Positions 49,009 through 52,583 of a stretch of 53,360 nt of DNA are shown here, one piece after another (the first letter of the stretch is position 1; each line of letters starts with the position of its first letter). The notes under the pieces are model-generated. The model saw only the letters and a program-made list of their open reading frames with translations. It was not told the origin of the DNA and ran no database searches. This DNA comes from Candidatus Woesearchaeota archaeon (GTDB taxonomy: Archaea; Nanobdellota; Nanobdellia; Woesearchaeales; UBA9642), in assembly GCA_016928115.1 (NCBI GenBank), contig JAFGLI010000010.1, forward strand, positions 1-53,360. Reading direction: 5' to 3'. Both the position numbers and the translations under genes were made by a program.

Positions 49009-49105
49009 CGGGCCCAGGGGGATTTGAACCCTCGACCCCATGGTTTCTTTCTCTATAAACTAAAAGATAAGAGCCATGTGCTCTACCAGACTAAGCTATG
49101 GGCCC
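49009..49105 (-). tRNA. tRNA-Lys (CTT) with intron
   Basis: 97 nt. Acceptor GGGCCCA/TGGGCCC, D-arm GCTTAGTCTGGTAGAGC, anticodon stem CATGG/CCATG with anticodon CTT, T-loop TTCAAAT, discriminator G. A 23-nt intron (49045-49067) at 37/38 contains TCTTT/AAAGA, compatible with a relaxed BHB motif. Confidence 0.94.
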
Positions 49106-49797: not shown

Positions 49798-50388
49798 TTA
49801 AATATCTATTATCCTGCCTTCAGGACCGGGGTTAATCAGTTTGGTTTCCCCAATATTCTCCTCTTTCCCGCCGTATTCATGCAGATGGCCGAAAATAACA
49901 ATAGCAGGCTTTGTCTCATTGATAAAAGCCCTTGTTGTCCTGTTGCCCACATGCTCCCCGTTTATTATATCCAGCTGTGTCCCGTATGGGGGGCCATGTA
50001 TCATAAAAATGACTTTATGCTCATCTTTAATCTTATCTTTAAAAGCCTCGCCAACTTTATAAAAACCACTGTCTGTCATGCTAAAACCTCCTCCACCATA
50101 GCCTAAGATTAAATATTCATCCCTGACAAACATTCCTTTGTGAATCTGAAAAACATTCTCTAAATTTTTAGTCAATTCAGTTAAATTTTCCTCAGACTCA
50201 TGATTCCCAGGTATAATCAAAACCTTTTTACCCATTTTATTTAACTCATTGAGAAAATAATCCAGCTCATTTTCAAAAAAAGTCAAATCACCCGCACACA
50301 ATATTAAATCAACCTGTTTGGCTTTTTCTTTTATTTTCTCAAATATCTCCTTATCCCCGTGCAAATCTACAAAAGCAAGAATTTTCAT
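49798..50388 (-). CDS. calcineurin-like metallophosphoesterase
   Basis: 196 residues. FVDLHGD, CAGDLTFF, IPGNHESEE, MIHGPPYGT and FGHLHEYGG give the full metal site; the C-terminus is INPGPEG. Paralogue of 31263-31865. Overlaps the srp54 stop by 4 nt, so translation is coupled. Confidence 0.9.
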   Translation of the reverse strand: MKILAFVDLHGDKEIFEKIKEKAKQVDLILCAGDLTFFENELDYFLNELNKMGKKVLIIPGNHESEENLTELTKNLENVFQIHKGMFVRDEYLILGYGGGGFSMTDSGFYKVGEAFKDKIKDEHKVIFMIHGPPYGTQLDIINGEHVGNRTTRAFINETKPAIVIFGHLHEYGGKEENIGETKLINPGPEGRIIDI

Positions 50389-51740
50389 TTTTTCATCTTA
50401 AAGTTTCCTGACTGAAACTGTTTCATTAATTTATTAATGTTTTTCCCTTTTCCAAGCCCTTTCATCTTTTTCATTATGTTCTTTGACTGCCTGTACTGCT
50501 TAATCAATGACCTCACATCTTTTATATCCAAACCTGAGCCTTCTGCTATTCTTTTAACCCTCTGCCCCGATATCAAATCAGGATTCTCAAGCTCCTCTTC
50601 AGTCATCGAGTCCATTGCAAACTTCCATTTTTCCAGGTTCTCCTCCTGGACATCCAGTACATTATCAGGCAAATCCATTCCTGAAAACCCAGGAACCATT
50701 TTCATAATTTTCTTAAGCGGGCCCATTTTTTTCATAGCATTCATCTGCTCATATAAGTCAACAAGGTTAAAATCACCTTTCATAAACCTCTGGCTTATAT
50801 CAACTGCCTTCTCTTCATCAATAGAATGCTTTGCCTTTTCAAGCAAAGCCTCTATATCACCCATGCCCAACAACTGTGAAATAAAGCCTTCAGGCCTGAA
50901 TTCCTCAATATCATCAACCTTCTCCCCAACACCAATAAAAACTATGGGGGACTTTGTTGCTGCGCATGCAGCCAGAGCGCCTCCTCCTTTTGCTGTTCCG
51001 TCAAGCTTTGTAATAATAACACCATTAACCTTACATGTCTCATGAAACTTCTCAGCCTGCTTTCTTGCAGCCTGCCCTATGTCTGCTCCCATTACCAACA
51101 GATTCTTATCGGGCTTTATTATCCTGTTCAGGTTGGTTAATTCCTTAATCAGCTCTTTGTTCAATGCATCCCTTCCTGCAGTGTCTATAATAACCAGGTC
51201 ATAATCATTAAGCTTCTTTGAGAATTCATTATATACTTTAATTGCATTTTTTTGCTTCTCATTGCCGAAAAAATCAACCTTTATTTTATCTGACAACTGC
51301 TTCAGCTGGTCATAAGCAGCAGGCCTGTATGTGTCTGTCTGCAGTAACGCTACCTTTTTCCCTCTTTTTTTAAAATGCTTGGCTATTTTTGCAGCAGTTG
51401 TTGTTTTTCCATTACCAAACAAGCCGACAAGCATAATTTTTACAGGCTTTTTGCTTATTTCTATTTTAGAGCCTTCGCCTACAAAACCGACAAGCTCCTC
51501 ATATATGATTTTAATAAGATATTCTTTCTTATCCAGTCCTGAAGGTGCTTTTTCCTCCAAAGCCCTTTCCTTTATTTTCTTGGTAAGTTCCATGACCAAT
51601 GAAACATCAACATCACTTTGAAGTAAGGCTCTCTGTATGTCTTTTATTATCTCCTGTACCAGAGCCTTATCTAAGAACAAAGCTGATTTTATCTTCTTCA
51701 GACTGTCTTTCAATGAGCTGCTTAGCCTATCCAATACCAT
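50385..51740 (-). CDS. srp54: signal recognition particle protein SRP54
   Basis: 451 residues. N domain helices, G domain with GLFGNGKTTTAAKIA, VIIDTAGRD and ITKLDGTAKGG, then the M domain (about 300-435) with methionine-rich helices (FMKGDFNLVDLYEQMNAMKKMG, KKMKGLGKGKNINKLMKQ). Binds 7S RNA and signal peptides. The first G-loop reads GNGKT where GSGKT is common, but the GKT core is intact. Confidence 0.97.
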   Translation of the reverse strand: MVLDRLSSSLKDSLKKIKSALFLDKALVQEIIKDIQRALLQSDVDVSLVMELTKKIKERALEEKAPSGLDKKEYLIKIIYEELVGFVGEGSKIEISKKPVKIMLVGLFGNGKTTTAAKIAKHFKKRGKKVALLQTDTYRPAAYDQLKQLSDKIKVDFFGNEKQKNAIKVYNEFSKKLNDYDLVIIDTAGRDALNKELIKELTNLNRIIKPDKNLLVMGADIGQAARKQAEKFHETCKVNGVIITKLDGTAKGGGALAACAATKSPIVFIGVGEKVDDIEEFRPEGFISQLLGMGDIEALLEKAKHSIDEEKAVDISQRFMKGDFNLVDLYEQMNAMKKMGPLKKIMKMVPGFSGMDLPDNVLDVQEENLEKWKFAMDSMTEEELENPDLISGQRVKRIAEGSGLDIKDVRSLIKQYRQSKNIMKKMKGLGKGKNINKLMKQFQSGNFKMKK

Positions 51741-51836
51741 AGATTTCTGAAATAAAGTTTAGTTTATAAATGTTTATGTAAAAATAAGAGGAAATTAGTT
51801 AATTTTATAAATTGACGATATTTTCAGTATTTCAGC

Positions 51837-51908
51837 GCATCGGTGGTCTAACGGCTATGACTGCGGCCTTCCAAGCCGCCTATCCGGGTTCGAATCCCGG
51901 CCGATGCA
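51837..51908 (+). tRNA. tRNA-Gly (TCC), abutting rnhB
   Basis: 72 nt. Acceptor GCATCGG/CCGATGC, anticodon loop CTTCCAA giving TCC, T-arm CCGGG-TTCGAAT-CCCGG, discriminator A at 51908. The next base, 51909, is the first of the rnhB start codon. A TATA-like TTTTATAAATT (about 51803-51813) is the only promoter seen for both. Confidence 0.96.
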
Positions 51909-52583
51909 TTGGTCCTAATTGCCGGAGTGGAGGAAGCAGGAAGAGGCCCTGTAATAGGCCCCATGGTTATGGTAATTGCAGTTATTGATGAGAAAAAAGA
52001 GAATGAATTAAGAAAAATTGGTGTAAAGGATTCTAAATTAATACTGCCTGAAAAAAGAGAATATTTGTTTAAAAAATTAAAGGGAATTGTTGATTATGAA
52101 ATGATTATTGTTGAGCCAAAAGAGATTGATGAGGCATTATTGTCTGAAAGATTAAATCTGAACTGGCTTGAGGCTGAAAAGGCTTCTTTTTTGATAAATA
52201 AAATGTTTAAAAAAAAGAGTTTTGATAAGGTTATTCTGGATTGTCCTTCGACTAATATAAAATCCTATACAGATTATGTTGAGAAAAACCTTGAATTAAA
52301 AACAAGGAAAAACATCAAGGTCATAGCAGAGCATAAGGCAGATGTAAACCATATTGTTGTAGGCGCTGCTTCTATTATAGCAAAGGTTACAAGAGACAGG
52401 GAAATAGAGAAAATAAAGAAAAAAATAGGAAAAGAAATTGGCTCAGGTTATCCTGCTGACCCAAAGACAAAAAAGTTTCTTAAGGAAAACTATGACAAAT
52501 ACCCTGAAATCTTTAGAAAGACCTGGGATACTTATAAAAAGATTGTAAATGACAAGAAGCAAAGGGGATTGGAGGAGTTTTAA
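51909..52583 (+). CDS. rnhB: ribonuclease HII, TTG start after tRNA-Gly
   Basis: 224 residues. Removes ribonucleotides and RNA primers from DNA. EAGRGPVIGPMV, VILDCPST (D111) and KADVNHIVVGAASIIAKVTRD (D145) are the RNase HII signature. The first catalytic aspartate is replaced: VEEAGRG (E8-E9) instead of the near-invariant DEAGRG. TTG 51909 is the only possible start before the active site (GTG 51927 would cut it off). No ribosome site, since the preceding DNA is tRNA. Confidence 0.93.
   Translation: MVLIAGVEEAGRGPVIGPMVMVIAVIDEKKENELRKIGVKDSKLILPEKREYLFKKLKGIVDYEMIIVEPKEIDEALLSERLNLNWLEAEKASFLINKMFKKKSFDKVILDCPSTNIKSYTDYVEKNLELKTRKNIKVIAEHKADVNHIVVGAASIIAKVTRDREIEKIKKKIGKEIGSGYPADPKTKKFLKENYDKYPEIFRKTWDTYKKIVNDKKQRGLEEF

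Follow-up and report, generated by a model that had tools for sequence, protein, structure and literature searches.

Messenger RNAs freed by tRNA punctuation in mitochondria carry little or no leader. In animal mitochondria, it is the processing of tRNA ends that frees the mRNAs adjoining them (PMC9181182). A related arrangement is known from the small-genome archaeon Nanoarchaeum equitans, in which an RNase Z cut after the tRNA in a tRNA-Val/C-D box sRNA8 precursor is proposed to generate the 5' terminus of the RNA that follows; this RNA is a guide sRNA and not an mRNA (PMC3491384). Co-transcription of an archaeal tRNA with a protein gene is described for tRNA-Lys and TK0306 of Thermococcus kodakarensis; there, the tRNA lies within a 159-nt leader rather than at zero distance, and the passage on it describes no release of the mRNA by RNase Z (PMC4247193).

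Leaderless mRNAs, defined as having the start codon 0 to 5 nt from the 5' end (PMC4983044), occur in Haloferax and Saccharolobus (PMC4983044, PMC7531240). Their 5' ends come from transcription initiation and thus carry a triphosphate, and the promoter-made 0-nt leaderless genes of S. solfataricus avoid UUG, which has been ascribed to the start preferences of RNA polymerase (PMC7531240). In the open-licence literature, we found no description of a leaderless mRNA made by a tRNA cut in prokaryotes.

Here, we describe a tRNA-Gly gene that runs without any spacer into rnhB in the window, by which we mean the whole 53,360-nucleotide stretch of DNA that was analyzed (contig 17 of a Woesearchaeota metagenome-assembled genome [MAG]). 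In kind, the arrangement is tRNA punctuation as known from mitochondria and from the N. equitans tRNA-sRNA precursor; the case at hand involves a protein gene of a cellular archaeon. It differs from its mitochondrial counterpart in being a local two-gene unit with its own predicted promoter rather than part of a genome-wide polycistron, and in having UUG rather than AUG or AUA at the junction. If the tRNA cut makes the mRNA, mitochondrion-like punctuation would yield leaderless messages in cellular archaea, among them messages starting with U, which promoters produce inefficiently, and the supply of some proteins would be tied to tRNA maturation. The junction also makes it possible to ask, at the level of sequence, whether archaea can translate a leaderless mRNA with a 5'-monophosphate, and a UUG at the very 5' end.

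A tRNA-Gly gene directly abuts the start codon of rnhB

The source genome comprises 774 kb (33% GC, 92% complete). It is the smallest among the six family genomes examined, the other five measuring 1.2 to 1.7 Mb, and is the sole member of its genus among the genomes compared. The features of the locus are collected in Table 1.

Table 1. Coordinates of the features at the tRNA-Gly/rnhB locus, in window positions
Feature	Positions	Strand	Basis
SRP54 gene, divergent from tRNA-Gly	50385..51740	-	ORF; coordinates in relatives
Predicted promoter of the tRNA-Gly/rnhB unit (BRE/TATA-type, AGTTAATTTTATAAA)	51797..51811	+	Motif scan
tRNA-Gly, anticodon UCC	51837..51908	+	ARAGORN, RF00005, cloverleaf fold
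Zero-nucleotide junction, expected tRNase Z cut	51908..51909	+	Sequence; cleavage predicted
rnhB, archaeal RNase HII, TTG start	51909..52583	+	Pfam/NCBIfam, start alignment, homologs 1uax/1eke

An earlier note on this DNA had placed the tRNA discriminator base at 51908 and the rnhB start at a TTG beginning at 51909. ARAGORN, RF00005 (same span, 63.4 bits) and the sequence itself agree exactly on this zero spacing, which reads GCATCGG...CCGATGC-A/TTG. As in mitochondrial-type punctuation, the tRNA thus abuts a frame on the same strand with 0 nt between them. The tRNA is complete, with a cloverleaf fold, a perfect 7-bp acceptor stem, A at position 73 and a UCC anticodon; CCA is not encoded. No other Gly-UCC copy was found in the assembly.

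The rnhB frame opened by this TTG is intact over 224 aa. The named relatives of the gene are mostly Woesearchaeota MAGs. Between the upstream stop codon (51858-51860) and 51909 there is no in-frame ATG, GTG or TTG, and the next in-frame starts, GTG 51927 and ATG 51963, would cost the protein its first beta strand, with the truncation extending up to or beyond the first catalytic motif. GTG 51927, the choice of a naive gene caller, was rejected since it would delete this strand, which is kept in relatives. The TTG-started N-terminus (LVLIAGVEEAGRGP) aligns with those of ATG-started relatives (e.g., MTLIAGIDEAGRGP) and with the RNases HII of M. jannaschii and P. horikoshii (solved homologs 1uax, 1eke). 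Because of these matches, TTG 51909 is, on comparative grounds, the rnhB start, and the earlier view that it is the only usable one holds: no other in-frame start gives a complete protein.

By family profile, the product is a predicted RNase HII (PF01351, E=5e-44, 150.9 bits with a cutoff of 25.8; TIGR00729, 210.7 bits with a cutoff of 123.3), the full activity of which is not assured. At the first acidic catalytic residue, it has Glu (GVEEAGRGP, window positions 51927-51950) in place of the Asp of G[IV]DEAGRGP. Most relatives have Asp; the change to Glu is common to loci L004, L010, L011 and L034. The substitution is conservative, and metal binding or activity may be altered.

These features could be those of a gene in decay, in which a rearrangement took the promoter and the UUG junction is a fossil that yields little or no product. 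The TTG start, the lost promoter and the catalytic Glu would all fit such a history, as would the fact that rnhB went undetected in 7 of 60 genomes. However, the 224-aa frame is intact and 53 to 60% identical to its best relatives, and the same Glu occurs in the intact, ATG-started rnhB genes of L004, L010 and L011. We consider decay quite unlikely.

The only good promoter-like site lies ahead of the tRNA

We built a BRE/TATA-type promoter motif from 197 first-in-unit genes of the source genome and scanned positions 51741 to 51935 with it. The best site, AGTTAATTTTATAAA, scores 8.9, compared with a median of 8.6 for first genes, and is the only good one; it starts 40 nt upstream of tRNA-Gly. 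The motif-to-start spacing of first-in-unit genes (36 to 39 nt) predicts a transcription start at approximately 51833-51836, which is 1 to 4 nt before the tRNA. In the interval that an rnhB promoter of its own would occupy (-46 to -21, inside the tRNA), the best score is -20; each of the 197 first genes scores higher, and among 874 genes this value falls within the bottom 0.7%. By this computational scan, the downstream gene is without a separate promoter, as in mitochondrial-type punctuation.

In the 197 first-in-unit genes, TATA hexamers show a sharp peak 32 to 28 nt before the ATG (-32 to -28), so their transcripts should begin at or near the start codon. In internal genes, this peak is absent and G is slightly enriched from -12 to -8. 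Judged by motif position, leaderless mRNA is the norm for first genes in the source genome. The rnhB genes of relatives often have a TATA-like box about 25 to 30 nt before the ATG, as read from the alignment, which makes it probable that the leaderless state of the rnhB mRNA is ancestral.

That relatives seem to own leaderless rnhB promoters also speaks for a promoter within the tRNA, weak or of an unusual kind, from which rnhB transcription would start at or near 51909. The tRNA is GC-rich, however, and no position within it exceeds -20, against the median of 8.6; furthermore, U is disfavored as the first base of an RNA (PMC7531240). Such an internal promoter seems to us very unlikely.

Probable release of a leaderless rnhB message by tRNase Z

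A Shine-Dalgarno (SD) leader has no room before rnhB: the 70 bases preceding the TTG are tRNA, the 3' end of which is paired in the acceptor stem. Together with the promoter scan, this agrees with the earlier statement that rnhB has no other promoter or ribosome site.

Translation might instead take place on a tRNA-rnhB precursor that stays uncut, or on an mRNA with a longer leader, with the cut serving tRNA maturation only and destroying or bypassing the message. There are parallels for this in the tRNA-Lys inside the TK0306 5' leader (PMC4247193), in N. equitans, where a tRNA half serves as the 5' UTR for valyl-tRNA synthetase (PMC3491384), and in the genes that we found 11 to 20 nt from tRNAs in the survey described below. 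This route is unlikely in our estimation, given that the tRNA fills the space that an SD would need and that it must be cut, since no second Gly-UCC copy was found. The fold of the uncut precursor was dropped as evidence of occlusion, as its alternative pairing (-47 kcal/mol) was no better than that of shuffled sequences.

As the best and, in our judgment, a probable explanation, we infer from the locus that the tRNA cut releases the rnhB message. The single promoter ahead of tRNA-Gly would give a joint tRNA-Gly/rnhB precursor, and tRNase Z cleavage after discriminator A51908 would complete the tRNA. The same cut would free a leaderless 5'-monophosphate mRNA starting at the UUG of rnhB, which would then be translated by the leaderless route apparently used by most first genes of this genome. 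The source genome has an RNase Z gene (G000:C13:30257-31156, 338.5 bits with a cutoff of 293). Over its first 60 nt, the mRNA so released would fold weakly (z=+1.3), with the UUG unpaired. tRNase Z leaves a phosphate on the 5' end of its downstream product and not a hydroxyl, which the earlier note had allowed for.

In one Haloferax leaderless mRNA, a change of AUG to UUG abolished initiation (PMC4983044), so a leaderless UUG may initiate weakly. A review gives UUG as usable in all mRNA types (PMC7531240). Ends made by processing escape the limit that RNA polymerase sets on UUG starts. The evidence does not reach as far as the further proposal that RNase HII synthesis is gated by tRNA maturation. 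The arrangement would entail co-transcription, not regulation, and relatives lack the junction.

The junction is private to the source genome and lies in a partly conserved neighborhood

The earlier note had suggested looking for the same junction in relatives, and at 29 of 29 other rnhB loci no tRNA abuts the gene; the junction is private to the source genome. In those relatives that were scanned, tRNA-Gly(UCC) abuts no gene at 0 nt, and viral contigs do not contain the junction sequence. The zero gap is unique among the approximately 30 tRNAs of the source genome, the others of which lie at least 20 nt before any same-strand gene.

G002, which by SRP54 is the closest family member, also has the divergent SRP54/tRNA-Gly pair; there, rnhB lies 7.6 kb from the tRNA and is oriented towards it. 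G001 and G032 have the same order with larger distances, and in many other relatives rnhB and tRNA-Gly are on one contig, about 5 to 20 kb apart. Since the pair and the contig linkage recur, SRP54, tRNA-Gly and rnhB constitute one neighborhood that is partly conserved, and the junction looks like a rearrangement inside it. Probably, an inversion or a loss in a reduced genome brought rnhB up to the tRNA and deprived the gene of its own promoter.

A junction of this kind could also be created if the metagenome contig had been wrongly joined at the tRNA, and the assembly is indeed fragmented, with contigs C20 and C21 ending beside tRNAs. Against this, the Gly-UCC tRNA is single copy in the source genome and relatives have both the SRP54/tRNA-Gly pair and, often, rnhB on the same contig some 6 to 20 kb away. 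We hold an artifact to be highly improbable.

Several other features of tRNAs in these genomes were observed. Near-identical 3' flanks (ATAGCCCTTTAAAAGTGCTATTACCCC...) are found at several source-genome tRNAs (e.g., C20:1-64, C21:1-63 and C14 near 19100), and contigs C20 and C21 end beside them; these flanks may represent a repeat or terminator family adjoining tRNAs. When introns are allowed, ARAGORN reports an intron-containing CTA-anticodon tRNA, labeled Pyl, at window positions 49009-49105 (- strand); this is probably another tRNA with a misplaced intron. ORFs that by eye resemble PIG-L deacetylases lie 17 and 7 nt 3' of tRNA-Gly(UCC) in two relatives (L308 and L356, respectively); this tRNA is therefore tied to different genes across lineages.

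Tight tRNA-gene junctions recur across the order

We surveyed 145 genomes of the order, using a T-arm pattern for tRNA-like sequence and then recognized tRNAs. ATG followed a tRNA-like sequence at 0 nt in 12 matches, none of which was a recognized tRNA. Recognized tRNAs were directly followed by TTG or GTG in 85 cases, 79 of them TTG. ORFs of at least 138 aa open at 8 of these 79 tRNA/TTG junctions, all eight with TTG and the source rnhB included; they include a GNAT acetyltransferase and a PDZ/Lon-like protein, and for two (L255, L256) a nearby in-frame ATG may be the real start. Where a single nucleotide separates the tRNA from ATG, 8 of 23 cases open ORFs of at least 120 codons (including TruD, GNAT and DJ-1/PfpI proteins), and SDR-like and MazG-like proteins were recognized by eye after tRNA-T-ATG. 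Genes in the tRNA-T-ATG arrangement with plausible N-termini also occur outside the order, within the same class.

The base that follows the tRNA shapes these junctions. U is the first trailer base in 39 of 49 tRNAs not selected by trailer, and in 53 of the 58 in the +1 set, so a gene abutting a tRNA tends to TTG at 0 nt or to T-ATG. A takes this position in 7 of 23 tRNAs in the source genome and in 0 of 26 elsewhere. A separate avoidance of ATG right after tRNAs on account of leaderless starts could not be claimed, since A is scarce in that position in any case.

The frequency with which such junctions open genes was compared with that at nearby spacings. Random TTG or GTG codons of the source genome open ORFs of at least 120 codons in 6.8% of cases. 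Across the order, TTG is gene-opening at 0 nt in 8 of 79 cases versus 2 of 32 at +1 nt (Fisher p=0.72), and ATG opens ORFs of at least 120 codons at +1 in 8 of 23 cases versus 6 of 21 at 2 to 9 nt (p=0.75). Because these fractions do not differ, zero is the end of a short-gap continuum and not a preferred spacing. Selection for exact zero spacing was rejected, the gene-opening fraction being flat from 0-1 to 2-9 nt: the arrangement is real, and its exact zero spacing is without a statistical signal of selection.

One junction separate from that of rnhB provides the best evidence that tight tRNA-gene junctions can persist. In three genera of one family, a shared gene follows tRNA-Arg(CCT), separated from it by T (G029), T (G140), TG (G149) or TAAC (G150), with the starts aligned at about 40% protein identity. 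The gap sequence varies yet stays within the 0- to 5-nt definition of leaderless (PMC4983044). The gene encodes an unnamed protein of 340 to 356 aa that has no Pfam match (L378, L381, L382, L384). The G150 frame runs for 85 codons before a stop interrupts it, and a distance of 0.5 to 0.7 kb separates the tRNA from the gene in G157 and G163. It is possible, though we lean slightly against it, that in Woesearchaeota and related small-genome archaea tRNA 3'-end processing is a regular substitute for a promoter in making leaderless or near-leaderless mRNAs, one that would allow U-starts (UUG, U-AUG), with some junctions under selection.

Two further loci in relatives were noted by eye. In L354, an ORF with a histidyl-tRNA-synthetase-like N-terminus begins 9 nt after tRNA-His, and in L363 a prolyl-tRNA-synthetase-like ORF begins 6 nt after tRNA-Pro; each would place a tRNA and its apparent cognate synthetase in one unit.
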